A stretch of 64,000 nt of DNA from Arcobacter sp. FWKO B (GTDB taxonomy: Bacteria; Campylobacterota; Campylobacteria; Campylobacterales; Arcobacteraceae). The notes below the pieces were generated by a model, which made no database searches, was not told the DNA's origin, and saw nothing but the letters and a program-made list of their open reading frames with translations. Shown here piece by piece: positions 39,108-58,320 of this stretch (its first letter is position 1; every line of letters begins with the position of its first letter). A program made the translations under genes and the position numbers. The stretch is from assembly GCF_014844135.1 (NCBI RefSeq), contig NZ_CP041403.1:1-64000 (forward strand), given 5' to 3'.

Positions 39108-39512
39108 TTATTCTGCAAGATTATGTTTTTGTATTACTTCTTCCAAAGCTTTATAGAGGTCTGTTGAGTTGATTGGTTTTACTATAAGTGAACTTTGTAG
39201 TTCTCTTATAACATCGATATACTCTGACTCATTATGCCCACTTACGAAAATTACTTTTATATCATCTAAAAACTCTTTTATATTTTGTACCATCGTTATA
39301 CCATTCATTTTTGGCATACTTATATCTGTAATAACAAAATCAATATTACAATCTTTACACATCTTAATAGCATCAAGTCCATTGTCTGCAAAATAAGCAC
39401 TTTTGAACAATATTGGTAAAGTTTCTTTCATTGTGTTTAGTACAAACTCTTCATCATCGACGAACAACACATCAAAGTTTTTGATAACTTTTTTAATTTC
39501 AGTTTTTGTCAT
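39108..39512 (-). CDS. Single-domain response regulator
   Basis: The 134 residues form one receiver domain. They carry the acidic pair VDDEE, phospho-acceptor Asp in FVITDISMPKMNG, the Ser switch in IFVSGHNE and the conserved Lys in IVKPIN. There is no output domain. It is divergent from the HD-GYP gene and probably works by protein contact, with either that phosphodiesterase or the kinases downstream. Confidence 0.9.
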   Translation of the reverse strand: MTKTEIKKVIKNFDVLFVDDEEFVLNTMKETLPILFKSAYFADNGLDAIKMCKDCNIDFVITDISMPKMNGITMVQNIKEFLDDIKVIFVSGHNESEYIDVIRELQSSLIVKPINSTDLYKALEEVIQKHNLAE

Positions 39513-40628: not shown

Positions 40629-41345
40629 CTACATTTTTGCTATGAGCTTATATCCAAGTCCAGAAATATTTTCCAAATACTCAGATGGTAGTTTTTTCCT
40701 AAGATTTTTCACTAGTGTTCTGAGGGCTGATGGTGACATTACCTCATCATATTTTTCCCAAACTTGATGTTCAATTTGTGAATATGTAACAAGCTTGTTT
40801 TTATTTTCAGATAACAAATCCATCAGAGATTTTTCTTTTTTCTTTAGTTTGATATTTTCATCTTTATTTGTTATGACCCCGCTTATACTGTCGTATGATA
40901 AATCACTATCAATTTGCACTAGTATATTAGAAGTTAAATATAAATAGTCAATTACCTTATATAAGGCTTCTTTTAATTTTGAAAAACTAACTGGTTTTTG
41001 TATATATGCTTGTATATTTAGATTTACACAATTTATCAAGTGATCATTAGTGCTGTGTGCCGTCATCATAATAACTGGAATCATAAGGTCTTTTTTTCTT
41101 ACTTCTTTGATAAAGTTAATACCATTCATTGTTGGCATTTCTATATCTGATAAAATTAGTTTAATCTTATGAGTATTAAATATATCTAAAGCTTCTTTAC
41201 CATTATTTGCAGTCATGACATTATCACAAAAACTTTTTAGTGTTTGAGTAACTTCTTTTTGACTATTTATGTCATCTTCAACATATAAAATTGTCAATTC
41301 TTTGAGTAATCCATTTAATTGCTTACTGTTTAACATATTAAACAC
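40629..41345 (-). CDS. OmpR/PhoB-type response regulator
   Basis: A receiver domain (VEDDIN, ILSDIEMPTMNG, MMTAHS, IQKPVS) is joined to a C-terminal winged-helix DNA-binding domain (about 145-238) with SPSALRTLVKNLRKKL. At 238 residues it is of family length. It is divergent from the chemosensory operon, so it may control that operon. The partner kinase is not adjacent in the same direction. Confidence 0.9.
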   Translation of the reverse strand: MFNMLNSKQLNGLLKELTILYVEDDINSQKEVTQTLKSFCDNVMTANNGKEALDIFNTHKIKLILSDIEMPTMNGINFIKEVRKKDLMIPVIMMTAHSTNDHLINCVNLNIQAYIQKPVSFSKLKEALYKVIDYLYLTSNILVQIDSDLSYDSISGVITNKDENIKLKKKEKSLMDLLSENKNKLVTYSQIEHQVWEKYDEVMSPSALRTLVKNLRKKLPSEYLENISGLGYKLIAKM

Positions 41346-41492: not shown

Positions 41493-42530
41493 GTGAGTTT
41501 GATAAGAGAACTAAAACACTTTGGCAATTCATTGTCTTTATTGGTAGTAGAAGATGAGATTGCTCTTAATGCGGAATTGGTTAGTGTATTATCAACATTT
41601 TTTAAAAGTGTTGATTTTGCTTTTGATGGTAAAGAAGGGCTTGAGAAGTTTGCAAAAAATAGACCTGATATTGTTCTTACTGATATAAGTATGCCTAAAA
41701 TGGATGGTATAAAGATGTCGCAAGAGATCAAAAATCTATACAGAGGGCAACATATAGTGGTATTGTCAGCACATGGTGATACTAAGTATATGATTGAACT
41801 TATTGATATAGGAATAGATCAATTTATTTTGAAGCCTTTTGATAAAAATACTTTGATGTATAAATTATTAAAAGTAGCGGAAAATATCATTTATAAAAAA
41901 GAATTTGATAAATTCTACAAAGACAAACAACTTCAAAGAATCGCAACCATAGAAAGTATTGTAGATACACAGCCATTACACGAATCAATTGTGCCTTTAG
42001 ATGATATTAAACCAGTTGAGAAAGTGACATATAATTTAAGCCATAATAGAGAAGATGCCGATGAGTTTATGGAGTCTTTAAAAAATGATGAGTTAATGTG
42101 GATGGCATTTAAAGATGATATTACTGAATTGATGGAGCTAAGTGCTGAATTTGGTGAAGATGTGGATAATTTGGCATTAAATGGAAGACTCAGTGAAGGG
42201 TTACGAACTAGCTTAGTGCATATCGTAAGAAGATATGCAAAAATATTCTCTCAGCTTGAACAAATGGCAAAGATGTCAGATACATTGGAACTTTTGGCAG
42301 AGTTTTTGGAAGATTTGGATGTAAACATATTAGATGATGAACAAAATAGAAAACTTAAATTGTTGGAATATATCAATAATGATATAACAAGGTTTTTACA
42401 AACTGTTTTTGTTTATAAAGATAGTGTTGATATCTATTATCTTGAAGATTCTCTTGAAAGTTCAATTTTACAACTAAAAAGTGAAATGTTTGGCTTAGAA
42501 GTTGAAGAAGATGAGGCAGAGTTTTTTTAG
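41493..42530 (+). CDS. Response regulator with novel C-terminal domain, first gene of chemosensory operon
   Basis: The N-terminal receiver domain (VVEDE, IVLTDISMPKMDG, VLSAHGD, ILKPFD) covers residues 1-125. The remaining 220 residues are acidic and helical, with EFMESLKNDELMWMAF and a long coiled coil. I recognise no output family there. The start is GTG at 41493 with AAAGGA eight bases upstream. Being first in the cheA operon, it probably takes phosphate from that CheA. Confidence 0.85.
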   Translation: MSLIRELKHFGNSLSLLVVEDEIALNAELVSVLSTFFKSVDFAFDGKEGLEKFAKNRPDIVLTDISMPKMDGIKMSQEIKNLYRGQHIVVLSAHGDTKYMIELIDIGIDQFILKPFDKNTLMYKLLKVAENIIYKKEFDKFYKDKQLQRIATIESIVDTQPLHESIVPLDDIKPVEKVTYNLSHNREDADEFMESLKNDELMWMAFKDDITELMELSAEFGEDVDNLALNGRLSEGLRTSLVHIVRRYAKIFSQLEQMAKMSDTLELLAEFLEDLDVNILDDEQNRKLKLLEYINNDITRFLQTVFVYKDSVDIYYLEDSLESSILQLKSEMFGLEVEEDEAEFF

Positions 42531-42633
42531 ATTATAGTCTTTAAAATCAGTCTGGATCTTGTTTGGGGTAGGTGTTGGTGTTAATAAATTAGTGTCAATA
42601 AATAATGACAAAAGAAAGAAGTAGGTGAACAGT

Positions 42634-44952
42634 ATGAATCCTATATTACAACAATTTTTAATAGAGGCAAGAGAAAATCTCCTGTTTTTAGATAAAAATC
42701 TTGAGCTTTTAGAAAGCAATGATGGTGATATTGTAAATGCTCTATTTAGAGCTGCACATACACTAAAGGGGAGTTCTGGACTGGCTGGATTTGACTGTGT
42801 TAAAGAAATTACACATATTGCTGAAGATTTGCTTGATGCATATAGAAGTGATAAGATAATTTATTCAGATCAGCTTTTAAGAACTTTATATGATATGTTT
42901 GACGAGGTTGCAGAGCTTGTTGATATTGCTGAAGAAAGTGGCGAGATTACTTTTATTGAGCAAGAAAGAGTTGAAGAGTTTAAGTCATCAAGGGCTGCAA
43001 TTTTAGATTTGAGAGATGATATTCAAGATAAACAATTTTGTGAATTTAATATCATAGATGATGTGATACCGCCATTTGGGAATTTATTTTTAAATGATTT
43101 TCAAAGGTTAGATTTTAATAAGCTTAGTTTTGATACTAAGGCTATAACAAAAGAAGAGTTTGAAACAGGTGGTTTTTATATCATAGACCTTGATTTACCA
43201 AAAGAGACTTTAGAACTAGGTAATGACCCTTTTTATTCACTATATCTTTTGGGTGAAGAAAATGTCATTAGCATCTATATTGAGGTTGATGAGAGTTGTG
43301 AGAATATTGCAAAAAATCCAATAGTATGGAGTAGTAGAATTATTGCAATAGTATATTCAAATCAAAATGATTTTGAAAATGCTTTTTACAACTTTATGGA
43401 AGATGTGAGTATATATCCATTGGCTATAAAATCGTTTTTTAAAACAGAGCTTGATTTAAAAAGTAGTGATTGTCTAAAGCCTTTAATAGCTGATATTAAA
43501 TTGTTTTTAGAGAATTTGGATATTGATGGTTTGATAGATTTATTACAAGGTGTTAGTAAAGATTTACAAAAAGATTCTTTGGAATATTTTTTAATAAATC
43601 GTTTGTGCTATATTCTTGAGGTTAATGACTTAAATACTGAGCTATTAAATGAGATGGTTGGGTATGTAGTGGATGTGTTAAATATAGATGAATTATATAC
43701 TGAGGTGTGTGATCATAATACAACTGAAGATGTAATTATAGCTTCTCAGAAAGAGAAAAAAGCATCAAAACCTATGGCTAAAATGGTTAAAATTGATCTT
43801 GATGATGTTGATAAAATGATGGATATAGTTGGTGAAATGCTAGTTATTAAAAACTCATTACCTTATATTGCACAAGCTTTGAATTTTGAAAACATTGAAG
43901 CAAATAGAAGGGAGTTGATGGCAAGATATGATGAAATAAATCGTGTAACAATTCAATTACAAGAAAAAGTTATGGAGATGAGACTCCTTTCTTTGTCTTT
44001 TATATTTGATAGGTACCCTAAACTAATAAGAGATATATCTAAATCATTGGGCAAAAAAATAAAGTATGTTGAATCAGGTGGTGATACAAAGCTTGATAAA
44101 ACTATTATAGAAAAACTAGCAGATCCTTTGATTCATATTATTAGAAATTCTCTTGATCATGGAATAGAATCACCTGATATAAGAGAACAAAAAGGAAAAA
44201 GTCCAGAAGGAACAATCTCAATAAAAGCAGAATCTTTAGGCGATAAAGTATATGTAAGTATTGAGGATGATGGCAAAGGGATTGATGTACAAAAAGTTGT
44301 ACAAAAAGCCCTTGAGAAAAAAATGGTTGATGTTGAAGCACTAGAGCAAATGAGTGAAGAAGAAAAGCTTATGTTGGTGTTTCATCCTGGTGTTTCTACA
44401 ATGGAACAAATTAGTGAGCTATCTGGTCGTGGTGTTGGCATGGATGTTGTTCGTCAAAGTATCAATGAAGTAGGTGGCAAGATTTCACTAAGTAGTACAG
44501 TAAATGTAGGTACAAAGTTGGTATTAGAGTTACCTATGAGTGTAGCTTTAAGTAATGTGTTTCATATTAAGCTTGGTAATGCAAACTACGCACTATCAAT
44601 GGATAGTATTGTTGAAACTGTTCAAGTACCAAAAAATGAGGTTGAATATATAAATCAACAACCAATGCTAAAACTAAGGGGGGTATTGATCCCATTGGTA
44701 TTTTATTATAAATTGCTATCAAGTGATATAGATAGCAAAGATTCGTATTCATTGGTGATAATACAAACTCAAGGGCAAAAGTTTGGTTTTGTTGTAGATG
44801 AGTTTGTCAATCAACTTGATATAGTGCAAAAACCATTAGCACCAAATTTTAAAAATCACCCTTTTATATCAGGAACATCACTTCTTGGAAATGGTGAGGT
44901 TTTATTTGTCATAAATCCATCTAGACTTTATACTGTAAAGGAGAAAAAATAA
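42634..44952 (+). CDS. cheA: Chemotaxis histidine kinase CheA
   Basis: The domains are in order. The Hpt domain has the phospho-His in [12 protein letters not shown] (near residue 48). A long middle region (about 140-385) lacks an obvious canonical P2. The dimerisation helices follow, then the ATPase with [23 protein letters not shown] and [13 protein letters not shown], and a C-terminal CheW-like domain. I use ATG 42634, preceded by AGGTGA; a GTG three codons earlier is possible. It is 772 residues long. There is no receiver domain, so it is not the CheAY fusion used by flagellar chemotaxis in this phylum, which suggests a second pathway. Confidence 0.93.
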
Positions 44953-46856
44953 TGTCTTTCATCAGAGAAAATAATAGTGCTACAAGCGGTATGCACACTA
45001 CTAGGGTTCATAAAAAAGGTGATGTAATCAACAAAAGAAAAAATCGTACATTAGCAAAACAACAACAAATTTCAGAGACTATTAGTGGAATATCAAATGA
45101 GATTTTGGCAAAAGCTCAAGAAAGTGTAAGTGCAATAGAGGAGCTAAAAAGCTCAATGGAACAAATTGCAGCAGCATCAGAACAAAATGCAGGTGCAGCT
45201 GAGCAGAGTTTGAGTGTAGTAAGTGCACTTAATACTTCTATACAAAAAACAATGAAATCTTTGCGTGAGTCTGTAGCAATTGCTACAAGTACAAAGGTAG
45301 CTGTTGAAGATGGTGGTGAAAAAGTTATTGAGACGGCAAAAAGAATGCAACTTGCTTCTGAGACAGTAACAACAGTACAAGAAAAAAGTGCAGATATGAA
45401 AAAAGCTAGTGATAATATTGGTCAAGCGGTGGGGCTTATTGCTAAAATTGCTGATCAAACAAACTTATTAGCACTAAATGCTGCAATAGAAGCTGCAAAA
45501 GCAAAAGAACAAGGAAAAGGTTTTGCTGTAGTTGCAGCAGAAACTAGAGAACTAGCAGCAGTATCTACAACTTATGCAGATGTGATAAGAGAGGTTGTAA
45601 GTAAGATTCAAGAGTATATTGAAGAGGTTGAAAAAAATATTACAAAAGTAGCTGCTCTTATTATTGATTCATCCAATCTTGGTAAAACAATAACATTTAA
45701 TATCCAAGGTTCTATGCAAAGTATTCAAAATGCAATAGATATTACATTAAAAGGTGCTACAAAGTTTGAGCTTCTTGCTCAAAAAGCTCAAGAGTTCAAT
45801 AAAGGCTCAGAATCAATAGCATCAGCAGCAGAAGAGAGTGCTAGTGCAGTAGCTCAGATTACTAATTCTATACAGATGCAAGTAAATGCACTTCATGAAG
45901 CAGAAGAAGCAGCTAGTAGTTTAAGTGAGCTTGCCGAGGATTTAAAAAACTCAACGGATGCTGCAAAAGATGCAGAAGAGATTTCAACAGCAGCTGAACA
46001 GCTGATAAGCGTTGTGGAAGAGATACAAAAGTCAATGCAACAATCAGTTGTTGCACTAGAGCAAATAAGCCATGCAGCTCAAATTACAGTAGATGAAGCT
46101 ACAAACAATAAAAAGCTAGCTGAAGCAGCAGTTGAGTTACAAGAAGAGTTGCTTATTAATACACAAGAGGTTATTGAAAACCTTAAAAAAACATCGACAC
46201 ATCTAAAAGATGTGGAAAGTGATCTTGAACATGCTTATACTTTCACGCAAAAAAGTGTGCATGAAGGTAAAACAACAAGTACACAAATGAGATATGTTGA
46301 TAAAGAAGCTAATAAAATAAATAAAACTCTTGTAAAAATAATAAATACAAATACACAAACAACTATGCTTGCAGTTAGTGGAAGTGTAGAAGCTGCTAGA
46401 GCAGGTGAAAGTGGCAAAGGTTTTGCTGTAGTAAGTGGAGATATCAGAAGTCTTGCTCAAGATGCAGGTAATAATATGGATAAAGTGCAAGATGTAATGG
46501 ATAGCCTTGATGAAGAAATAGGGAATATAGGTATCATCTGGAGTCGAACTATGGCAAGTCAAGAAAATGAACTTATAGCTGTTAGTATGCTAAAAGAAGA
46601 AGCACAAAAAGCTATTCATAATGTAGAAAATATTGTTGGTGCATTTAATGAGCTTAAAATTGCAAATGAAACTAATAGGGCTTCTATACAAGAGGCACTA
46701 ACAGCTAGCACTCAAATACAAGTTGCTGCTCAACAATCTTTAAGAAATACAGAAGAATCAAAACATGCAGCAAATTTGATAAACGAAACAGTTGCCGAAA
46801 TGGGTGAATACATAGAAGATTTGGCAGTTTCTGCTGATGAATTACAACAAGGATGA
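44952..46856 (+). CDS. Soluble chemoreceptor with two signalling-tip modules
   Basis: The 634-residue protein has no membrane segment and no ligand-binding domain. It is almost entirely coiled coil. A first MCP tip lies near residues 162-215 ([17 protein letters not shown], then [14 protein letters not shown]). A second, altered tip lies near 461-515 ([19 protein letters not shown], then [15 protein letters not shown]). It thus looks like two receptor cytoplasmic hairpins in one chain. Its ATG overlaps the cheA stop (TAATG). It is the only receptor in the operon and presumably takes its input through partner proteins. Confidence 0.92.
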
Positions 46857-46860
46857 GGTC

Positions 46861-47631
46861 ATGGAATATTTACTAATAACTGTAAAAGACAAATACTTTG
46901 CAATTGATGTTGAAAATATTATAGAAATACTAAGACCAAAGGATATCACTCAAATTCCTGAGGTTGAGCCTTATATCTTGGGTGTAATGAATATAAGAGG
47001 ACATATTGGTACAGTAGTTAGTCTTAGAAAAATGCTCCATTACAAAGAAATGGGTGAAGAGTTACAAGAGTTTATTGCTACTATTAAAAAAGCTCATATT
47101 GACTGGGTAAAAGAGCTTGAAGACTCTGTGAGTCATGATAAAGATTTCACAAAAACTCTTGATCCGCATAAATGTGCTCTTGGACAATGGCTTGATAAGA
47201 TTATGACATGCTTGAAATGTGATGATATATTTATGGATAAGATTAAAAGAGAGATAAATCCGCATCATAAATGTCTACATGAAAAAGGTGCTGTTGTGCT
47301 TGATACTGCTTTAAAAGACAAAGATAAAGCAATGAGTATAATAAGAACTGAAATACACAACCATTTTGATGTGGTTGTAAGCAATATTGAGGCTTTAAAT
47401 AATGATGTTGATTTATGGACAAACTCTATTCAAAGAATAGTTGCTTTTGTGACAGCAAAGGGTGATACAATAAATATTTTAGTTGATGATGTTGTAGATA
47501 TTATCTCAGTAAAAGAGGAACAAAAACAAAAACTCTCTCAACTAGATGAGGGGCATATTGTACAGTTTGACAGTGCTATTGAACTAAAGGATGGAAAAAT
47601 AGCAACTATTATTAATAATATAAATATTTAA
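46861..47631 (+). CDS. cheW: CheW coupling protein with inserted zinc-binding CZB domain
   Basis: The first CheW half occupies residues 1-65 (YLLITVKDKYFAIDVE, ILGVMNIRG). The chain then enters a CZB domain: His79 (AHIDW), the hallmark CALGQW at 105-110 and HHKCLHEKG (His136, His140). The CheW fold resumes from about 185 (FVTAKGDTINILVDDVVDI). CZB binds zinc through three His and one Cys and senses zinc or oxidants such as hypochlorite in other proteins. I use ATG 46861, with AAGGA seven bases upstream, instead of 46837. Confidence 0.9.
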   Translation: MEYLLITVKDKYFAIDVENIIEILRPKDITQIPEVEPYILGVMNIRGHIGTVVSLRKMLHYKEMGEELQEFIATIKKAHIDWVKELEDSVSHDKDFTKTLDPHKCALGQWLDKIMTCLKCDDIFMDKIKREINPHHKCLHEKGAVVLDTALKDKDKAMSIIRTEIHNHFDVVVSNIEALNNDVDLWTNSIQRIVAFVTAKGDTINILVDDVVDIISVKEEQKQKLSQLDEGHIVQFDSAIELKDGKIATIINNINI

Positions 47632-47641
47632 AGGATATATT

Positions 47642-48091
47642 ATGATAGCAATACCAGTAAAAATTCAAAAAGATGATATTGTAGTTGCTCATTCTTTTGG
47701 AAGAGCTATATATTTTGCAATTGCAAATAAGGGACAAATTGAGATTGTGAAAAACAATTATCATTGTGGAAGGTCTGTTGCCGTTTGGCTCAAAAGTCTT
47801 GGTGTTACTGATATTATTGTATCTCAACTAAAAAAAAACCCTTTTGAAGCTTTACAAAATATTGGTATAAAAGTGTATTACATAGGTAAAAAAAAGGTAG
47901 GGTTTCGTAATGCTATTTTAAAATTTGCTGATGGTGAAGTGCCTATCTTAAATCAGTTTAGCTATGAGTTGTATATGAAAAAAAGCCCTTTAAATGACGA
48001 ACAAAGTGTAGTGCAAACATACAAAGAGAGAATACATAGTCTAATAGAGCAAAGAGTTGTTAGTAATGTTGTTAAAACTTATCAATTATAA
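47642..48091 (+). CDS. NifX/NifB-type dinitrogenase cofactor-binding domain protein
   Basis: The 149-residue protein matches the dinitrogenase iron-molybdenum cofactor family: VVAHSFGRAIYFAI, CGRSVAVWLKSLGV, a KNPFEALQNIGIKVYY segment, then a short extra C-terminal tail. Members carry Fe-S or FeMo-cofactor precursors. Here it lies inside a chemosensory operon, between cheW-CZB and cheB, 10 bases from each. A redox or Fe-S sensing input to the soluble receptor is conceivable. CheD, often at this position, is not what the sequence shows. Confidence 0.85.
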   Translation: MIAIPVKIQKDDIVVAHSFGRAIYFAIANKGQIEIVKNNYHCGRSVAVWLKSLGVTDIIVSQLKKNPFEALQNIGIKVYYIGKKKVGFRNAILKFADGEVPILNQFSYELYMKKSPLNDEQSVVQTYKERIHSLIEQRVVSNVVKTYQL

Positions 48092-48100
48092 GGCTTAAAA

Positions 48101-49159
48101 ATGAGTCAAAAAGTTTTGGTAGTAGATGATTCTGCTTTAATTAGAAAAGAACTTGGAAAATTGCTTGAGGGTGTTGGGTTTGAGCTTGATTACGCTAAAA
48201 ATGGACAAGAAGCTATAGATAAGGCATTGGAGTTTGACTATGATGTGATAACTATGGATATCAATATGCCTGTTTTAGATGGTTTAAGTGCAGTAAAAGA
48301 GATTATGAAAAAAAAGCCAACGCCGATAGTCATGGTAAGTTCTTTAACACAAGGTGATGCAGATATAACATTTGAAGCACTTGATTATGGAGCTGTTGAT
48401 TTTGTAGGAAAGCCTGGAACTATTACTTTAAAAGTGAAAGAATCAGGCGATGAAATCATATGTAAAATTCAAGCAGCTGCAAAGATACCAAAGAATAGAC
48501 TTACTATAAGAAAAGTAGGCAATGGCGTTAAAGCAACACTTGCTAAAAAACCAAGAAAGATAGTTATACAATCGCACGGCATGGTTGAGAAAGTTGTTTT
48601 GATAGGTTCATCAACAGGTGGTCCTAGTTTGATAGAAAAAATTGCAACCTCATTGCCAGAAGATTATCCATATCCTATATGTGTAGTTCAGCATATGCCA
48701 GAGTCTTTTACTGCAAAGTTTGCAAATAGACTTGATAGTATAAGTCATATTGAGGTTGTTGAAGCAAAAAATAATGACATTTTATGTTCTGGGAAGATGA
48801 TTATTGGGAAGGGTGGATATCATATGCTTTTTTCAAAAAAAGCTTCTGGAGTTGTAAATATAAAACTTGGTGCTAATCTTGAGAAATCATTTTTTGTCCC
48901 ATCCGTTGATAAAATGTTTTTTTCTGCAGCTACTACATTTAGTGGTATAGATGTTTTAGCAATAGAGCTTACAGGGATAGGTGATGATGGAGCAAAAGGT
49001 TTGCTTGAGCTGAAAAAACATGGAGCATTGACTATAGCTGAATCAGAAGAAACAGCTACAATATATGGGATGCCTAGAGTTGCATATGAGATAGGCGCAA
49101 CTGTCAAAGTTCTCCCTTTTTCTAAAATATTGGAAGAAATTGTGTTATTTGGAAAGTGA
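48101..49159 (+). CDS. cheB: Chemotaxis methylesterase CheB
   Basis: A receiver domain (VDDSALIRKEL, DVITMDINMPVLDGL) is linked to the methylesterase domain. Its Ser-His-Asp residues lie in GSSTGGPS, CVVQHMP and GIGDDGAKGL. It removes methyl groups from receptors or deamidates Gln, providing adaptation. It pairs with cheR downstream. The length of 352 residues is normal. Confidence 0.95.
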   Translation: MSQKVLVVDDSALIRKELGKLLEGVGFELDYAKNGQEAIDKALEFDYDVITMDINMPVLDGLSAVKEIMKKKPTPIVMVSSLTQGDADITFEALDYGAVDFVGKPGTITLKVKESGDEIICKIQAAAKIPKNRLTIRKVGNGVKATLAKKPRKIVIQSHGMVEKVVLIGSSTGGPSLIEKIATSLPEDYPYPICVVQHMPESFTAKFANRLDSISHIEVVEAKNNDILCSGKMIIGKGGYHMLFSKKASGVVNIKLGANLEKSFFVPSVDKMFFSAATTFSGIDVLAIELTGIGDDGAKGLLELKKHGALTIAESEETATIYGMPRVAYEIGATVKVLPFSKILEEIVLFGK

Positions 49160-49204
49160 AATTTTGTAGTTATATACAAGATTAAAAAATATGAGGTATA
49201 AACA

Positions 49205-50029
49205 ATGATTGAGTTTAAAGATTTTCTTAGATTGAGAGATTTTTTATACCGTAAAACTGGTATCTATATGGATGATAAAAAATATGAACAATTTAGTAAA
49301 AAACTTATTTCATATTTAAAAGAGCATAGTTATGATAATTTTAGTGTATTTTTTCATGCATTAAGATTTGAAAGTGGTAGTAATATGCTTCAAGGTGTTA
49401 TAAATCTTGTGACCGTAAATGAGACTTATTTTTTTAGAGAAAAGCACCATTTTGATATATTGATAAATAATGTATTGCCATTTTTACATCAGCATAGAAG
49501 CAAAAATGATATTTTAAGAATACTATGTGCTCCTTCTTCAACTGGTGAAGAACCATATACCTTGGCTTTACATCTTTTGGATGAAGCAAAATTACTTGAA
49601 TCTAGAGATATTGAACTAATAGGAATAGATATAGATAGTAATGCAATAGATAAAGCAACATCTGGGGTTTTTACAAAAAGAAGTGTGCAATTTGTTCCAA
49701 ATCATTTATTAACAAGATACTTTAAATACAAAGAGAACAATTACCATATACATTCACATATTAAAAGTTCAATTTCTTTTAAAGTTGCAAATGTAATGGA
49801 TAGAAATCAGATGATGGGACTTGGGAATTTTGATGTGATTTTTTCAAGGAATATGTTGATTTATTTTGATGATGAAAGTAGAAAAAATGTTAGTCATACA
49901 TTTCATGATTTATTAAAACCTAAAGGTTTTGTATTTTTAGGGCATGCTGATAAAATGTGCCAAGTTGATTCACTTTTTGATACTGTAAAAATGTCTGATT
50001 CAATTATATATCAAAAGTCTAATAAGTGA
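49205..50029 (+). CDS. cheR: Chemotaxis methyltransferase CheR
   Basis: The N-terminal helical domain (YRKTGIYMDDKKYEQFSKKL) and the SAM domain are present. The SAM domain has VTVNETYFFREKHHFD, CAPSSTGEEPYTLA and DVIFSRNMLIYFD. It methylates glutamates of the receptor. It is 274 residues long and lacks the C-terminal pentapeptide-binding extensions seen elsewhere. Confidence 0.95.
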   Translation: MIEFKDFLRLRDFLYRKTGIYMDDKKYEQFSKKLISYLKEHSYDNFSVFFHALRFESGSNMLQGVINLVTVNETYFFREKHHFDILINNVLPFLHQHRSKNDILRILCAPSSTGEEPYTLALHLLDEAKLLESRDIELIGIDIDSNAIDKATSGVFTKRSVQFVPNHLLTRYFKYKENNYHIHSHIKSSISFKVANVMDRNQMMGLGNFDVIFSRNMLIYFDDESRKNVSHTFHDLLKPKGFVFLGHADKMCQVDSLFDTVKMSDSIIYQKSNK

Positions 50030-50057
50030 TTGTATATATTAATAAAAAGGAGATACT

Positions 50058-50444
50058 ATGGCAAAAATTGTAGTTATAGTTGATGATTCTCAAACAGTTC
50101 ATCTATCGCTGGAAATGGCTATGGAGGATTTGATAAATAGTGGTGAAATTGATAAAAAATCTTATATAAATCCACTTGATTTTGTGCAAGATGTTAAAAA
50201 TGGTTTGGTGTATGATTTGTGTATAACAGATATTAATATGCCTGAAATGAATGGTTTAGATTTAACAAAATTTCTTAAATCTTTCCCAGCAACACAAATC
50301 AAGCCTATTTTAGCACTGACAACAGAAAGCTCTGATGCAATCAAAGAGCAAGGAAAAGAAGCTGGACTTACTGGATGGATTACCAAGCCTTTTACAGCAG
50401 ATAAGGTTATTAGTGCTATAAAAAGAGTTTTAAGACTTAGATAA
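50058..50444 (+). CDS. cheY: CheY-type response regulator
   Basis: This single receiver domain (128 residues) has VDDSQTVHLSL, CITDINMPEMNGLDL, LTTESSD and WITKPF. It is a small output protein of the operon. Whether it acts on a flagellar motor or another target is not visible. It is led by AAAGGAGATACT before the ATG. Confidence 0.93.
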   Translation: MAKIVVIVDDSQTVHLSLEMAMEDLINSGEIDKKSYINPLDFVQDVKNGLVYDLCITDINMPEMNGLDLTKFLKSFPATQIKPILALTTESSDAIKEQGKEAGLTGWITKPFTADKVISAIKRVLRLR

Positions 50445-50458
50445 CTTAGGAGGAAAAA

Positions 50459-50683
50459 ATGATTTTAGATAATAATACATTATTTTTAGATACACCTATG
50501 GAGTATGAACATTACAAAGAGTTACTAAAAGCATCAAAAAAAGCTACGCAAATAGTTGTACAAACAAACGATTTGCATCCTAGCATAATGCAGTTACTTT
50601 TTTGTCTTTCAAGGGAAAAAGATATCATAAATGAAGATAAATTCAATAAAAGATTATTTGAAAATCTTCATTTTAGAGGCTAG
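50459..50683 (+). CDS. Small STAS-like protein, last gene of chemosensory operon
   Basis: The 74-residue protein has a beta-alpha pattern and a segment (about 28-52, IVVQTNDLHPSIMQLLFCLSR) reminiscent of STAS anti-anti-sigma domains. AGGAGG precedes the ATG by seven bases. It follows cheY by 14 bases. Small STAS proteins occur as outputs of some chemosensory systems, but the similarity here is weak. Confidence 0.6.
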   Translation: MILDNNTLFLDTPMEYEHYKELLKASKKATQIVVQTNDLHPSIMQLLFCLSREKDIINEDKFNKRLFENLHFRG

Positions 50684-50823
50684 TTATATTGAAAAGACTA
50701 TATTTTATTATATAAAGATGTATAAAACTAAGTTTTTTAAGCGTATATTTTAAGTTATTTGAATATAATTGGTTCATGACCTCGTTTTTCTTATTTGTTT
50801 TAATTCTAAAGTAGGGAGTTTAA

Positions 50824-52905
50824 GTGAGGAGTTATAATTTTTACTATACTGATGAAAGTACCTTTTAAAAAGATGTATCGGTTATTAATATAAATTCAAA
50901 AAATGTATTAATTCAGGTTTTTACATATATAACTAAAAAGAAGGAAATCGCTAAACTTCGTGATAGTATATTAAAACTTTTTCCATATGCTAAAATTATA
51001 GGTACAACAACAGATGGTGAGATAAATGGCTCTAAGGTTTCGACACATAAAACTGTTGTAAGTGTAACAATATTTGAAAAAACTACTGTAGAAGCAATAG
51101 CTTTAGAATATAAAAAAGAGCATTGTAAAGAGTGTAGAGCTTATTATGAGTGTATAAGTTTTGGTAAGAGTTTGGCAAATCAATTTACAAAAACAGATCC
51201 AAAAGTTGCAATATTTTTTGCTGATGGGCTCAACTTAAATGGTGAAAATTTTATAAAAGCTGTTGGTGAAACATTACCTAGTACTGTTATAATAGGTGGA
51301 CTTGCTGGTTCAAGTGGTAGCTTTAAAACTACTCTTGTATTTGATAATAAAAATATATTCAAACATGGTGCAGTTGGTATTGGTCTTTATGGTGAAAGTA
51401 TAATAGCAATTACTGATTATAAATGTAATTGGTCAACCATAGGTAAAGCGATGAAGATTACTAAATCAAATGGTAATAGAATCTATACAATAGATGGAAA
51501 TAGTGCATATGATATATATAGATACTACTTAGGCGATGATGTAGCTATGCATTTGCCCAAAATTGGTATGCAGTTTCCTTTGGTTAAAGAATATCCATCA
51601 TTGATTGCAAGATCAGTCATAGAAAAATATGATGATGGTTCACTTGAATTTACTGGTAATTTCAAAGAAGGTGAAGTCGTAAAGTTTGGTTTTATAAATA
51701 GTGATAGTGTATTTGCTGATGCATCTTATGTATCAGAAGAGATACTAAATACAGATGTAGAGTCTATTTTTATTTATTCATGTATGGCTAGAAGAAGGCT
51801 AATGCCTGATATGATTTATAAAGAGATTGAACCTCTTTCTACCCTAGCATCAACAGCTGGTTTTTTTACAAATGGTAGTTTTTTAACCCATAATAATGAG
51901 AGTTTGTTCAATCAAACCATGAGTGTTATTGCTTTAAGTGAAAATGTAAAAAAACCAATTATCAAATTTAAACATACCCCTCAAAATATAGTAAGTAAGA
52001 AAAAATTAGACTTTTTTTCTACCGTTAAAGCACTTGTGCATCTAGTTGATACTTCCCACAAAGAACTCGAGCTTAAAAATCAACAACTTCAAGAGTTAAA
52101 TGAAATATTAGAAAATTCTATTGATTTAAAAATAAGAGAGTTAAGGGAAAAAGATCATATCTTAATACAACAATCAAAATTAGCTTCTATGGGGGAGATG
52201 ATAGGTAATATTGCCCATCAGTGGAGGCAACCACTCAATGTCATAGGGGCTATTAATATGAAAATAGAAACATTACTTGATTTTGGTGAGGTTATTGATT
52301 CTCAAAAATACAAACCTATTAGTAGTGATATAGTTATGCAACTAGATTATATGTCAAAAACTATTGATGATTTTAGAGATTTTTTTATCAAAAGAAAAGA
52401 AAAAAGTGTATTTAGTATTTATGAAGCAATAATGGATGTGTATAATTTAGTTAAGATTCAGTATCAAAATAAAAATATTGAAATAGATATTCAAGGGAGT
52501 GATATTTTTATAAATGGTTATAAAAATGAGTTTAAGCAGGTAGTAATAAATATACTTAACAATGCAAAAGATGCTATTTTAGCTAGATACAATAATAGAA
52601 CACTTCAAGATGATGGCTATATTAAAATAATTCTTAGCGGAAATCTTGAAAATATACAACTTTTTATTATTGATAATGGAGGTGGTATTCCTGAGAGTGT
52701 ATTGCCTAAAATTTTTGAACCATACTATACAACTAAATCAAAAACCAAAGGGACAGGTATTGGCTTGTATATGAGCCATCATATTATTCATGGTCATTTT
52801 CACGGTGAACTACAAGTGGAAAATACAGTATTTACACATAATAATAACAAATATAAAGGTGCTATGTTCAAAATCATATTACCTTCTAAAATCAACTCAC
52901 AATAA
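50824..52905 (+). pseudogene. FIST-domain sensor histidine kinase interrupted by a nonsense codon
   Basis: The reading frame starts at GTG 50824 with AGGGAG six bases upstream (MRSYNFYYTDESTF) and meets TAA at 50866-50868. After that stop it continues open in the same frame to 52905. The region after the stop is a clear FIST sensory domain (VININ, GTTTDGEI, FADGLNLNGENF, GGLAGSSGSF). A coiled coil, a HisKA box (MIGNIAHQWRQPLN) and an ATPase domain (VVINILNNAKDA, DNGGGIPE, GTGIGLYMS) follow. No ATG or GTG restarts the frame before a TTG at 51172, which would cut the FIST domain. One substitution in codon 15 explains it; sequencing error or readthrough are alternatives. Confidence 0.82.
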
Positions 52906-53029
52906 TAACACATTTTTTTCTTACTATTCATCAATAAGCTTTCTTTGGTAAATATTTAATATTTATTATAAATATTTTATAAAGATTAAAGAAAGGTTTT
53001 ATTTTAAGCAATAAAATAGGTGGTATATT

Positions 53030-54742
53030 GTGACTTTAAACCTAAATGTAACCAATATTATCAAAGAGTGTAAAAATACAAATGTTTTATATGTTGAAGA
53101 TGATATTGAAACAGTTGCAAGCGTATCTGAAGTGTTGAAAACATTTTTTAATAAGGTTTATATCGCATACAATGGTAAAGATGGTTTAGATAATTTTTTA
53201 GCAAATAAAGATGATATTGATATAGTGATATCTGATATTGTTATGCCAGAAAAAAGTGGCTTAGAAATGGTTCAGGATATTAGAAAGATTGATAGTGGTG
53301 TAAGTATTATTATGCTTTCAGCAAATAGTGATTTAGATAGTTTATTAGATATTATAAGATATGGTGTTGATGGTTTTTTAATAAAACCATTAGAGTATAA
53401 TCAATTTATATCCACTATTTCACAAATCGTTGAAAAGATAGCATTAAAAAGACAAAATGAAGAGTATAAACAATATTTAGAAGAAAAAATAAAACAAAAA
53501 AGTGAAGAACTAAAAAAACAGTATTATATTGATAAATTAACAGGATTAAAAAATAGACTTGCTTTACTAGATGATATTAAAAAATATAATTCAAGCAAAC
53601 TTATATTGTTTGATATAAATAGGTTTTCAGCTGTAAATGATGTCTATGGACATGAAATAGGTGATAGCGTTTTAAGGTTGGTTGCAAATATACTAAACAA
53701 AATGGTTTATAATAGTTGTGATGTGTATAGGATATCTTCTGATCAGTTTGTAATCTTGCCAAAAAGTTGTGATGAACTCTCTTTTTGTATGAAATTAATA
53801 GAAGATTTGCTCAATGATTTATCTTTACAAGATATTACATTTGATATAGATGATATGATTATAGAAGTTGGTATATCAGCAACTTTTGCAATAGTAACTG
53901 ATGTTCCATCTAAAAAATTACTAGAGTGTGGTTATACCGCTTTAGCGTATGCAAAAACAACAAATCAGCCATATATACACTATAAAAAGAGTTTAGAACA
54001 AAAAATAAACCATAAGAAGAAACTTGAAGCCGTAAAGCTTATAAAAAAAGCACTAGAAGAAGACAGACTTATTCCATATTATCAACCAATATATAAAGCT
54101 GATGATAGTGTAAGTTATGAGTGTCTAGCAAGAGTTATAAAAGGTGATACTGAAATAGTATTACCAAGTAGTTTTATGGCTGAAATCAAAAGTACGCCAT
54201 ATTATACAAAAGTTACTAAAACTATGATACAAAAATCTTTTAGTTACTTTGAAAATAAGCCTTATAAATTTAGCATAAATTTATCATTTGAAGATATTTT
54301 AAATCAACAAATAGTTGACTATTTATTGGAGCAACTACAAGAAAGAAATCTTTCAAATAGGTTAATTATAGAGATTTTGGAAAGTGAATCGATAGATAAC
54401 TATGAAGTTGTAAAAAATTTTATAACACAAATTCGTAAATTTGATGTTGCTATAGCTATAGATGATTTTGGAAGTGGATATTCAAACTTTTCTTATATGT
54501 TAGAGTTAGAGCCTGATTATATAAAAATTGATGGTTCAATTATTCAAAATATTTCTCAAGATTCAAAAGCATATTCTATAGCAAAATCTATTGTTTATTT
54601 TGCTAATGAACTAGGAATTAAAACAATAGCTGAGTTTATCAAAGACAAAGATGTGTACGAAAAAAGCCTAGAACTTGATATTTATGGCAGACAGGGCTTT
54701 TTTCTAGGTAAGCCAGTATCAGATATTATAAGTAAAGGATGA
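53030..54742 (+). CDS. REC-GGDEF-EAL protein with degenerate GGDEF
   Basis: The receiver domain (VEDDIE, IVISDIVMPEKSG, IMLSANSD, LIKPLE) is followed by a coiled coil. A GGDEF-like domain comes next in which the active motif reads ISSDQF, so cyclase activity is unlikely. The EAL domain has ECLARV in place of EALLR, IDDFGSGYSN, DYIKIDGS and an AEFI segment, so phosphodiesterase activity is plausible. The start is GTG at 53030 with AGGTGG upstream. It is first of five consecutive signalling genes and is probably phosphorylated by a kinase from the set. Confidence 0.9.
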   Translation: MTLNLNVTNIIKECKNTNVLYVEDDIETVASVSEVLKTFFNKVYIAYNGKDGLDNFLANKDDIDIVISDIVMPEKSGLEMVQDIRKIDSGVSIIMLSANSDLDSLLDIIRYGVDGFLIKPLEYNQFISTISQIVEKIALKRQNEEYKQYLEEKIKQKSEELKKQYYIDKLTGLKNRLALLDDIKKYNSSKLILFDINRFSAVNDVYGHEIGDSVLRLVANILNKMVYNSCDVYRISSDQFVILPKSCDELSFCMKLIEDLLNDLSLQDITFDIDDMIIEVGISATFAIVTDVPSKKLLECGYTALAYAKTTNQPYIHYKKSLEQKINHKKKLEAVKLIKKALEEDRLIPYYQPIYKADDSVSYECLARVIKGDTEIVLPSSFMAEIKSTPYYTKVTKTMIQKSFSYFENKPYKFSINLSFEDILNQQIVDYLLEQLQERNLSNRLIIEILESESIDNYEVVKNFITQIRKFDVAIAIDDFGSGYSNFSYMLELEPDYIKIDGSIIQNISQDSKAYSIAKSIVYFANELGIKTIAEFIKDKDVYEKSLELDIYGRQGFFLGKPVSDIISKG

Positions 54743-54745
54743 ACA

Positions 54746-55912
54746 ATGAAAATTTTAGTTGTTGATGACGATAGAGAATATCTTGATATGATTGAAATGG
54801 CGTTAAAAAAAGCGTTTAATGAACTTTTAGTTGAAATAGTAGATAATGGTAAAGATGCGATATCTAAATGTAATGCAGAACCAATAGATTTGATTTTCCT
54901 TGATGTAAATATGCCAAAAATGAGTGGAATAAATGTAGCAAATATTTTAAAAAATGTTGAAAAAACATCAAGTATCCCAATAATTTTTGTTACATCAAAC
55001 TCATATGCTGACTTTGCTGATAAAGGGTTTGAAATGGGGAGTATTGATTATATTTCTAAGCCTATTGATATAAATTTACTTTTAAATAGGGTAGCTTTAT
55101 ATATAACAATAATAAAACAACAAAAATCACTTGAAGAAGCAAATGCAATCTTGAAAAAAAGAGTTGATAAAGCCATGTATGAAAATGAGTTACATGAGCA
55201 GATGTTAATACATCAAAGTAAAACTTCTGTTATGGGTGAGATGATAGGTGCGATAGCCCATCAATGGAGACAACCTTTAAATATCATAGCAACTTCTATG
55301 ATAAATCTAGAAACAAAAGCAGAACTTGGTATGCTTGACCTTAATGAAATAAAAAGGATTTATACTAAAATAAATACTACGCTACAGTTTTTATCAAAAA
55401 CAATTGATGATTTTAGAAACTTTTTTTTGACATCAAACTCAAAAGAAAAAATAAATCTAGTTCAAGCTGTAAATTATACAATTGATTTAGTATCAGCACA
55501 ATTTAAAGCACATAATATAGCAATAGAATTTGTATATAACAAGGATGAATCATACATGATTGATGGGTATTTTAACGAATTTAGACAAGTGGTCTTAAAT
55601 CTATTTGCAAATAGCAAAGATGCTATTGAAGCAAGGATGAAAGAAAATGAAGAACTTGATGGTTATATTAAAATAACATTAAGTAAGGTTAGTGATAGTA
55701 TAAGTCTAACATTTTGTGATAATGGTGGTGGAATATCCCCAGAGATACAAAGTAAAATATTTAATCCTTATTTTACAACAAAATTTGCAGGACAAGGGAC
55801 AGGAATAGGACTTTACTTATCAAAATCAATAATAGAAAAATTTCATAACGGAACAATAGAAGTTTATAATAAAAATGATGGTGCTTGTTTTGAAATAAAA
55901 TTTAAAATCTAA
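54746..55912 (+). CDS. REC-histidine kinase 1
   Basis: An N-terminal receiver (VVDDDREYLDM, LIFLDVNMPKMSG, VTSNSYA, ISKPID) is joined by a coiled coil to a HisKA box (MIGAIAHQWRQPLN). The ATPase domain follows (EFRQVVLNLFANSKDA, FCDNGGGI, GTGIGLYLS). There is no membrane segment, so it acts in the cytoplasm, perhaps as a phosphorelay hub. It starts three bases after the preceding stop. Confidence 0.92.
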   Translation: MKILVVDDDREYLDMIEMALKKAFNELLVEIVDNGKDAISKCNAEPIDLIFLDVNMPKMSGINVANILKNVEKTSSIPIIFVTSNSYADFADKGFEMGSIDYISKPIDINLLLNRVALYITIIKQQKSLEEANAILKKRVDKAMYENELHEQMLIHQSKTSVMGEMIGAIAHQWRQPLNIIATSMINLETKAELGMLDLNEIKRIYTKINTTLQFLSKTIDDFRNFFLTSNSKEKINLVQAVNYTIDLVSAQFKAHNIAIEFVYNKDESYMIDGYFNEFRQVVLNLFANSKDAIEARMKENEELDGYIKITLSKVSDSISLTFCDNGGGISPEIQSKIFNPYFTTKFAGQGTGIGLYLSKSIIEKFHNGTIEVYNKNDGACFEIKFKI

Positions 55913-55923
55913 GGTGGTAGCAA

Positions 55924-57102
55924 ATGTCTGATTATAATTTAAAAAATTTGTTAGAATCAGCTAATAATTTAAAAATACTTTATGTTGAAGATGATAAAGA
56001 TGTGATGGTGGAAACATTACAAACTTTAGAAAATATCTTCAATAATATTCTTCTTGCAAAAAATGGACAAGAAGGTTTGGAGGTATATCAACAAAATCCA
56101 GATATTGATTTTGTTTTAACAGATATTACTATGCCTGTTATGAATGGAATTGAAATGATAAGCCATATAAGACAATATAATAAAGAAATCCCCATACTTG
56201 TGATATCTGCATATAGTGATGTACCATATTTTTTGGATACTATAAGATTGGGAATAGATGGATATATATTAAAACCTATAGAATCAAGCCAATTTTTTGC
56301 CATCCTTGCTAAGGTAGTTGACAAAATCAATCTTCAAAAAGAGAATAATATTTATAAACATAAGCTTGAACAAAGAGTTCAAGAAGAGATTGAAAACAGA
56401 CAATATCAAGAAAAAATATTAATCCAGCAAAGCAAACTAGCAGCAATGGGAGAAATGATAGATGCAATAGCTCATCAATGGAAACAACCAATCAATATCA
56501 TTGCTATGAATATTGATATGCTTCATTATGATTATGAAGATAATCTTATTGATAAAGAATATCTTGAAAATTTTACCACAAAACTACAATCTCAAATAAA
56601 ACATATGGTGAATACACTTGATGAATTTAGAAGTTTTTTTAGACCTAATAAAACTCAAACCAAATTTATACTATCATCTGTTATCGATGGAACTTTACTT
56701 CTTATAAAAGATGATTTGATAAGGAATAAAATTCAAGTTATAAAAAATTATGAAAATGATTTTGAAATGGTTGGGTGTGAAAATGAATTTAAACATTTGA
56801 TACTCAATATCTTCAGTAATGCTAGAGATGCTTTTAATGAAAGAAATATTCAAAATAGAGTGTTAAATATTGATTTAACAAAAAGTGATGGTTTGAGTTT
56901 TTTGGAAATATCAGATAATGCTGGCGGAATACCAGATGATATTATAGGAACTATTTTTAAGCCTAATGTTACTACAAAAGAAGAGGGTAAAGGGACTGGT
57001 ATGGGACTTTATATCTCTACACAAATAGCCCATAAATATGGCGGAGAGTTATACGCTAATAATATACCAGATGGTGTGAAGTTTACATTTGCAATAAAAT
57101 AA
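55924..57102 (+). CDS. REC-histidine kinase 2
   Basis: It has the same plan as its neighbour: receiver (VEDDKDVM, VLTDITMPVMNG, VISAYSD, ILKPIE), coiled coil, HisKA (MIDAIAHQWKQPIN) and ATPase (HLILNIFSNARDA, SDNAGGIPD, GTGMGLYIS). The 392-residue soluble protein differs enough from its neighbours that the duplications are old. Confidence 0.92.
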   Translation: MSDYNLKNLLESANNLKILYVEDDKDVMVETLQTLENIFNNILLAKNGQEGLEVYQQNPDIDFVLTDITMPVMNGIEMISHIRQYNKEIPILVISAYSDVPYFLDTIRLGIDGYILKPIESSQFFAILAKVVDKINLQKENNIYKHKLEQRVQEEIENRQYQEKILIQQSKLAAMGEMIDAIAHQWKQPINIIAMNIDMLHYDYEDNLIDKEYLENFTTKLQSQIKHMVNTLDEFRSFFRPNKTQTKFILSSVIDGTLLLIKDDLIRNKIQVIKNYENDFEMVGCENEFKHLILNIFSNARDAFNERNIQNRVLNIDLTKSDGLSFLEISDNAGGIPDDIIGTIFKPNVTTKEEGKGTGMGLYISTQIAHKYGGELYANNIPDGVKFTFAIK

Positions 57103-57114
57103 AGAGGCTCTGAT

Positions 57115-58251
57115 ATGAAAACAATTGAAAAATCGTTGTATCAAACTGTTTTGTATCTTCAAAGTGATCCAAAAGGGAAGAAAATTGTATCAAAAATTCT
57201 TAAAGAGAAATTTGAAAACCTAATAGTTACAAAAAGTGAAGATGAAGCCATTGTTTATTTTCAAAAATATCAAAATAGTATTGAGTTAATTATTGCAGAT
57301 ATTTATATATCTTCTAAACATTGTTTACATTTCATAAAAACTATAAGGGATGTTAGCTGTGATATCCCAATTATTTTATTTGGAGAGCTAATTGAGTATA
57401 GCCAATTAATAAAAGCAATAGATTTGAATATCAATGGTTTTTGTGAAAAACCTATTAAAAAAGATGAACTAAGCAAAAAAATTGATAAAATTCTTAAATG
57501 TTTAGATTTAAAAAAAGAACAAAGACAACAAGATATTATAACTTTTGAACAGTCAAAATTAAATACTATGGTTGAAGTGATGAGTAATATTGCTCATCAT
57601 TGGAGACAGCCACTCAACTCTATAGGCTCTTTAATGGTAAAGCTAGAAGCAAAAACTGATGAAAAACAGTTAACTGATGAAGACATATATGATGTTATAG
57701 AAAAAACCAACTCAATAATTACATATCTATCAACCATAATTAATGATTTTAGAAATTGTTTTAAGGCAACCAATCACTCAACAGATGTGGAATTGCATGA
57801 GCTTTTTGGTGCTATGTTATCATTTTATATTGCAGATTTATCGTATTATGATATAGATATAAAAGTACACTATGAAGAGCAGTCATTAAAAAATATACGC
57901 TATTCAGAGATGCTAAAACAAGTTTTGATGGTAGTTATAAATAATTCAAAAGAAGCAATTATTACTAAAGTAAATAAAACAAGCAAAGGGTTGATTGATA
58001 TAAATGTATATGCACAAGATGGAATGCTCTATATAGATATATATGATAATGGAAATGGGATAGAAGATGAAATGTTTGAAAAAATTTTTGATCCTTATTT
58101 TACTACTAAATTTAAGTCCCAAGGAACAGGGCTTGGGTTGTATAGAGCAAAAATATTGGTAGAAAAGCATATGATGGGGTATATTGATATAAAAAATATA
58201 GCTGATGGGGTATGTTGTTCTATTGTTTTACCTTTAAATGAGATTAGATAG
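57115..58251 (+). CDS. REC-histidine kinase 3 with degenerate receiver
   Basis: The receiver-like domain keeps an Asp at the phosphorylation strand (IIADIYIS) and the Lys (CEKPIK). It has lost the acidic pair (SDP) and the Thr/Ser switch (ILFGEL), so phosphotransfer is doubtful. The HisKA box NIAHHWRQPLNS and ATPase (QVLMVVINNSKEA, IYDNGNGI, GTGLGLYRA) are intact. It is the third of a consecutive series and 12 bases from its upstream neighbour. Confidence 0.9.
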   Translation: MKTIEKSLYQTVLYLQSDPKGKKIVSKILKEKFENLIVTKSEDEAIVYFQKYQNSIELIIADIYISSKHCLHFIKTIRDVSCDIPIILFGELIEYSQLIKAIDLNINGFCEKPIKKDELSKKIDKILKCLDLKKEQRQQDIITFEQSKLNTMVEVMSNIAHHWRQPLNSIGSLMVKLEAKTDEKQLTDEDIYDVIEKTNSIITYLSTIINDFRNCFKATNHSTDVELHELFGAMLSFYIADLSYYDIDIKVHYEEQSLKNIRYSEMLKQVLMVVINNSKEAIITKVNKTSKGLIDINVYAQDGMLYIDIYDNGNGIEDEMFEKIFDPYFTTKFKSQGTGLGLYRAKILVEKHMMGYIDIKNIADGVCCSIVLPLNEIR

Positions 58252-58320
58252 ATTATATATTTTTAATTAACTATTTTTATGATACTATTACCTATATACA
58301 TGATTAGCAAAGGGGAAGTA

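Follow-up and report, generated by a model that had tools for sequence, protein, structure and literature searches.

In Vibrio cholerae, the F9 chemosensory system builds a cytoplasmic array of two layers (PMC7534058); the class has been described with two signature proteins, the receptor DosM and a triple CheW, CheW3 (PMC9321776). Sensory domains are absent from 98% of DosM homologs (PMC9321776). CheW proteins that carry a CZB domain (CheW-CZB) are a known subgroup that makes up 1.4% of CZB proteins and is most abundant in Clostridia, and CZB domains respond to zinc and, where tested, to hypochlorous acid (HOCl) (PMC8262984). In Treponema denticola, a sensor domain on the CheW protein CheWS feeds signal to arrays (PMC10653840). 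Here we analyzed the first 64,000 nucleotides of contig NZ_CP041403.1 of Arcobacter sp. FWKO B (hereafter, the window), a genome of one contig (2.24 Mb), and within it nine open reading frames (ORFs) at 41493-50683. All nine lie on the + strand with intergenic gaps of -20 to +94 bp, an arrangement that fits one operon, and their Pfam domains agree with the nine-gene chemosensory operon named in a preliminary description of this DNA. We propose, with a probability of about 0.5, that this operon encodes an F9-derived cytoplasmic system cut down to one coupling protein, with signal input predicted to enter through its CheW-CZB.

Like the V. cholerae F9 system (cluster I; PMC7534058, PMC9321776), the operon encodes a double-signaling-domain receptor lacking a sensor and transmembrane (TM) helix, a CheA of the same clade, CheB, CheR, CheY and a small STAS-like protein, and it coexists with a system of another class that drives motility. 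Unlike the V. cholerae system, it has no CheW3, HEAT-repeat, ParA or CheZ-like gene, carries a single CheW-CZB instead, begins with a response regulator that we call REC-X, and contains an added NifX-like gene. F9 clusters in metagenome-assembled genomes (MAGs) of Sulfurimonas resemble the window operon in their DosM (38-40% identical), CheA core (46-47%), CheW-CZB (25-31%) and a REC-X relative, but also carry CheW3 plus PAS, HEAT, CheZ-like and ParA genes. The sole other locus found with the layout of the window is in the MAG Epsilonproteobacteria bacterium tcs-49 (LLYS01000001.1), which shares REC-X, CheA, DosM, CheW-CZB, CheB, CheR, the STAS-like protein and CheY, likewise without CheW3, and is flanked by homologs of both upstream receivers of the window (OmpR-type and stand-alone). 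It differs in having no NifX-like gene, a longer REC-X (471 aa) and a shorter CheA (687 aa).

The kinase places the system within the F9 lineage. A tree of CheA kinase cores (23 sequences, maximum likelihood) pairs the window CheA with that of tcs-49 (support 100/98), joins this pair to the Sulfurimonas F9 CheAs (100/99) and groups all of them with plasmid F9 CheAs (100/100), far from the F7-type CheA of the same genome. As this position lies inside the F9 clade, the kinase is F9-derived, and we are nearly certain that the system as a whole belongs to an F9-derived class. Of the F9 gene set, DosM, CheB, CheR, CheY, CheA and a STAS-like protein are present, but the F9 order DosM-CheW3-CheB-HEAT-CheR-CheY-CheA-STAS is not matched, with HEAT and CheW3 missing and the order changed. 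No CheW3 was found in the operon or among all frames of the genome that bear a CheW domain, and the HEAT-repeat and ParA genes that F9 clusters regularly contain are missing here; we therefore call the system an F9-derived variant rather than a plain F9 member. The F7-type operon of this genome lies at 220 kb in the order cheY-cheA-cheR-(unassigned)-cheB, cheYARDB being the F7 gene order reported for Arcobacter (PMC9321776). A degraded CheA-like protein at 1936 kb was considered as a part of the window system and rejected, its very divergent core (branch 4.9) not being placed. A very divergent 270-aa CheA-like protein (L069:17872-18684, -) has dimerization and ATPase domains only, without Hpt or CheW, and lies beside a small PAS-like ORF, and an 874-aa protein (L069:14119-16743, +) has a C-terminal CheW domain and a weak Cache match in its middle.

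The receptor of the operon has two signaling domains, centered at residues ~188 and ~488 (Pfam, genome search), and Pfam and a TM check found neither a TM helix nor any domain other than MCPsignal. It is thus soluble and sensorless, as previously described, although its two signaling tips had been overlooked; this double-ended build is the feature that defines the F9/DosM class. Full-length homologs (38-42% identity) are found in the tcs-49 and Sulfurimonas MAG F9 loci, and homologs with 28-36% identity to a Sulfurimonas DosM are found on plasmids of Sphaerotilus, Methylosinus, Methylobacterium, Eleftheria, Azospirillum and Agrobacterium. In 26 of the 26 DosM-type receptors measured (from Campylobacterota and alpha- and betaproteobacteria, V. 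cholerae DosM not included), the spacing from tip to tip is exactly 300 residues, even though identity to the window receptor drops to 31%. The arm from the second tip to the C-terminus, scored by regular expression in 25 of these proteins, is 146-147 residues long, and the N-terminal tail is variable. Such an invariant spacing is what a fixed-length rod between two baseplates would need. Computed at ~0.148 nm per residue, this rod would be ~44 nm long from tip to tip. Given that the tips reach past the baseplate, this length appears compatible with the 35 nm between V. cholerae baseplates (PMC7184735).

The only CheW of the operon carries the CZB domain. In a structure model of this protein (predicted local distance difference test score (pLDDT) 91.4; predicted template modeling score 0.82), the CZB domain is inserted in a CheW fold (Z 17 to a solved CheW) and forms a four-helix domain; this domain matches the DgcZ CZB (3t9o; Z 13.4, 116 residues, 2.4 Å). 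Alignment of the ligands finds the four predicted zinc ligands H87, C113, H144 and H148 in the window protein, which bears out its earlier naming as a CheW-CZB, and the full set is conserved in 26 of 30 relatives. In every complete Sulfurimonas-type locus, CheW-CZB lies behind CheA and accompanies CheW3; there the NLRG motif of CheW-CZB reads (S/N)(Y/F/H)E, with Glu for Arg, in 27 of 27 readable copies, and the third domain of CheW3 keeps an intact NIRG. In contrast, the solo CheW-CZBs of the window and tcs-49 keep NIRG themselves. The simplest reading of these motifs is that CheW-CZB would be an accessory subunit in Sulfurimonas and a full coupling protein here.

CheW-CZB is present in one of the 104 genomes of the host's family, in 6 further genomes out of 397 from the phylum (CheW/CheV-only matches set aside), and in 27 named Campylobacterota loci plus one remote match; the viral contigs searched held no relatives and the plasmids searched just one weak CheW match. 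This scattered occurrence suggests horizontal spread. The window protein resembles known CheW-CZB proteins (PMC8262984) in its domains and zinc ligands but, unlike those described, has no other CheW beside it in its DosM system, a setting for which we found no description; our literature search returned nothing linking CheW-CZB with DosM. It is also similar in idea to T. denticola CheWS, in which the kinase receives signal from a sensor domain on CheW, bypassing receptors, although CheWS has a CheR-like S-adenosylmethionine-binding domain and belongs to a membrane array with ordinary receptors. CZB domains occur in three more receptors of this genome (G000:C1:1925212, 1681240, 1747145).

Together, these features suggest how the system could operate. 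Dimers of the DosM-type receptor would be fixed-length rods whose two end tips bind CheA/CheW and, judging from homology and the 300-residue spacing, would bridge two CheA/CheW baseplates in a putative array. As the receptor has neither a sensory domain nor a partner receptor with the same tip, input must enter from the baseplate or from soluble proteins, and the likeliest entry would be the CZB domain that the single CheW carries. Zinc loss or Cys113 oxidation could shift the CZB helices and then, via the flanking CheW halves, the activity of CheA; CheA would in turn phosphorylate CheB, a CheY predicted not to dock on FliM and probably REC-X, while CheR and CheB would tune the rods. With a sensorless receptor and a CZB domain on its only coupling protein, the array most likely senses the cell interior through that coupling protein, and we give about even odds that the CZB domain itself is the signal input, for zinc or an oxidant. 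A stricter version, in which the receptors have given up sensing, the two-tipped rod being the only receptor and acting as a 300-residue spacer and in adaptation, with all input passing via CZB, is one that we put forward tentatively, as possible but doubtful. The preliminary description had likewise proposed a cytoplasmic array that senses via its coupling protein; the sensorless, soluble receptor of the F9/DosM class and the CZB domain on the sole CheW speak for that part of it, but the iron-sulfur (Fe-S) part is weak.

With regard to output, the window CheY has its phosphorylation site but carries Ile, Ser, Trp and Ala (alignment to E. coli CheY) at W58, K91, Y106 and K119, the FliM-binding residues (PMC9321776). 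Loss of these residues makes flagellar motor output unlikely, and the predicted output is probably not the motor. REC-X has a receiver without a known C-terminal Pfam domain, as had been reported, but it is not novel, as its family occurs in 30 of 298 Campylobacterota genomes. In the structure model of REC-X, residues 207-333 form five helices (mean pLDDT 71.7), and this C-terminal part is a helical bundle with a conserved acidic/aromatic tail, DEAEFF; relatives in the tcs-49 and Sulfurimonas F9 loci end in DDIFDF/DDIDFF. Sulfurimonas F9 clusters also encode a small protein without a Pfam match (L065:11878-12279 and homologs) that has the motif LQYQDI(I/S)xQQ, which resembles the CheZ DxxxQ, and a tail DDEIEFF, and which is a possible CheY phosphatase. 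The likeness of tails such as DDIFDF and DDEIEFF suggests that the REC-X family and this small protein may have a common docking tail. We did not adopt REC-X as a CheZ relative beyond a lead, as its tail resembles DDEIEFF but it lacks the Gln and has no Pfam CheZ match; when the entire REC-X model was used as query for a fold search, receiver matches took up the list, and a CheZ-like fold of the X domain was not established. In or beside plasmid F9 clusters, short receptor-like proteins (L230:18219-19163, L165:9801-10832) have a CheZ-like DxxxQ helix and tails ARIELF/PRIELF, and may be phosphatases fused to a signaling tip.

The other components were largely as first described. CheA has Hpt, dimerization, HATPase and CheW domains only by Pfam and so no fused receiver, CheB, CheR and CheY were recovered by their profiles, and all catalytic motifs searched are intact. 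The claim that everything for signaling and adaptation is present was generous, in that the listed genes exist but Pfam recognizes no CheZ-, CheC-, CheX- or CheD-type gene in the operon. The 74-aa protein itself has no Pfam match to a STAS profile, and its STAS-like label is tentative, its longer 89-aa Sulfurimonas counterpart matching STAS_2 weakly (E 0.005).

Several observations weigh against input through CheW-CZB. Some zinc ligands are lost from the CheW-CZB of 4 of the 30 loci, so F9 systems do not all require zinc, and zinc binding, array formation and control of CheA are here predictions from sequence and a structure model. In V. cholerae, DosM occupies every other trimer, which implies a second receptor (PMC7534058); if this pattern holds here, an F7-type receptor must join the array, and two separate CheW genes of the 150-aa class in the genome could in principle join as well. 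DosM might then be merely a scaffold in mixed arrays in which the main F7-type receptors feed CheA, and the genome does encode 19 further receptors, of which some have no evident TM helix. However, all 19 share one tip, ILSLNAAVEAATAGEAGKGF(A/S)VVAxEVRNLA, and each DosM tip departs from it at 9 or more of some 31 positions, among them the Arg/Lys-to-Thr position in the trimer contact; a separate F7-type operon is present in the genome; and no second DosM-like tip was found among the receptors readable by tip pattern in tcs-49 or one Sulfurimonas genome. A single, different tip on all 19 receptors makes cross-feeding unlikely, so the objection raised in the preliminary description, that receptors elsewhere feed this CheA, is not borne out by tip sequence. 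We thus consider mixed arrays improbable and think it likely that DosM is the sole receptor of this system. The tip of the 19 receptors is itself almost invariant and carries Thr in place of the usual trimer-contact Arg (EAATAGEAGKGF). Input could also come from the products of neighboring genes, namely REC-X, the two upstream receivers (the divergent OmpR-type one and the stand-alone one) or, downstream, the FIST kinase and REC-kinases, with CZB being a structural or regulatory remnant. REC-X is the first gene here and in tcs-49 and a relative is the last in the Sulfurimonas F9 cluster, the two upstream receivers are common to tcs-49, and the ligand losses would suit a remnant, but the window CheW-CZB retains its four ligands and NIRG, and REC-X relatives are widespread outside F9 loci and so not F9-specific. 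On balance, we regard input from neighbors as unlikely.

A fuller version of the preliminary description had CheW-CZB and the NifX-like protein jointly sense metal, redox or Fe-S state. The two genes are in the same operon, 10 bp apart, and PF02579 proteins bind metal-sulfur cofactors. The NifX-like protein does belong to PF02579, but it has no match to the TIGR02663 equivalog, its gene is absent from tcs-49 and all other 28 loci, and its nearest paralog (39% over 157 columns) lies at 801 kb, directly behind the cydA and cydB genes of a cytochrome bd (PF01654 and PF02322), a neighborhood that recurs in another genome of the family. The nif cluster of this genome, separate from the operon, holds NifB and a genuine NifX (above the TIGR02663 cut-off), neither of which is among the relatives found, and we rejected a nitrogenase link or nif-cluster origin for the operon protein. 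Since its paralog is cydAB-linked and the gene is absent from the other F9 loci, the Fe-S or nitrogenase reading is weak, a role as Fe-S sensor of the array was not upheld, and joint sensing seems to us very improbable. For this protein, a connection with respiration or oxygen and one with Fe-S clusters are equally likely guesses; no PF02579 protein tied to a chemosensory operon came up in our literature search. In two or more genomes of the family (L166:4327-7572, L169), a PF02579 protein immediately follows cydAB, once with a His/Cys-rich tail; such proteins are possible cytochrome bd accessory proteins.

Table 1. Features of the chemosensory operon and of the receivers upstream of it, in window coordinates.
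Feature	Coordinates	Strand	Evidence and remarks
REC-X response regulator, 345 aa	41493..42530	+	Pfam REC E 1.8e-24; receiver at residues 14-134
CheA, 775 aa	42625..44952	+	Hpt, unassigned 97-385, dimerization, HATPase, CheW; without receiver
DosM-type double-signaling-domain receptor, 634 aa	44952..46856	+	two MCPsignal stretches; without TM helix or ligand-binding domain
First signaling tip, residues 172-203	45465..45560	+	
Second signaling tip, residues 472-503	46365..46460	+	exactly 300 residues past the first
CheW-CZB, sole CheW of the operon	46837..47631	+	NIRG motif kept
CZB domain inserted between CheW halves, residues 72-193	47050..47415	+	PF13682 E 8e-9
NifX-like protein, 149 aa	47642..48091	+	PF02579 E 1.5e-8
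CheB methylesterase with receiver	48101..49159	+	NF001965 above cut-off
CheR methyltransferase	49205..50029	+	PF01739 E 7.5e-54
CheY, receiver-only	50058..50444	+	Pfam
Small STAS_2-like protein, 74 aa	50459..50683	+	homolog of the small protein of the tcs-49 locus
OmpR-type response regulator, divergent	40629..41345	-	Pfam; 41% identity to L076 homolog
Stand-alone receiver	39108..39512	-	40% identity to homolog flanking the tcs-49 locus

Behind the operon, a FIST-domain histidine kinase lies at 50823-52905 (+), its N-terminal frame (VRSYNFYYTDESTF) broken by an in-frame TAA; the called ORF starts at TTG 51172, without the beginning of the FIST domain. Signaling genes then run over 51172-59949 (+), encoding this kinase, a REC-GGDEF-EAL protein, three REC-kinases and a PhnD-like/GGDEF protein.

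If the stricter version above is correct, this would be an array in which all signal input enters through the CZB domain of the coupling protein and none through receptors. The locus bears on how receptors without sensory domains, as in the F9/DosM arrays of V. cholerae, obtain their signal, and, stripped to one receptor, one sensor-bearing coupling protein and one kinase, it makes receptor-independent input approachable with three proteins. The 300-residue spacing in all 26 receptors gives a direct structural prediction for the distance between layers, and surveys of F9 systems that demand CheW3 overlook systems such as this one.

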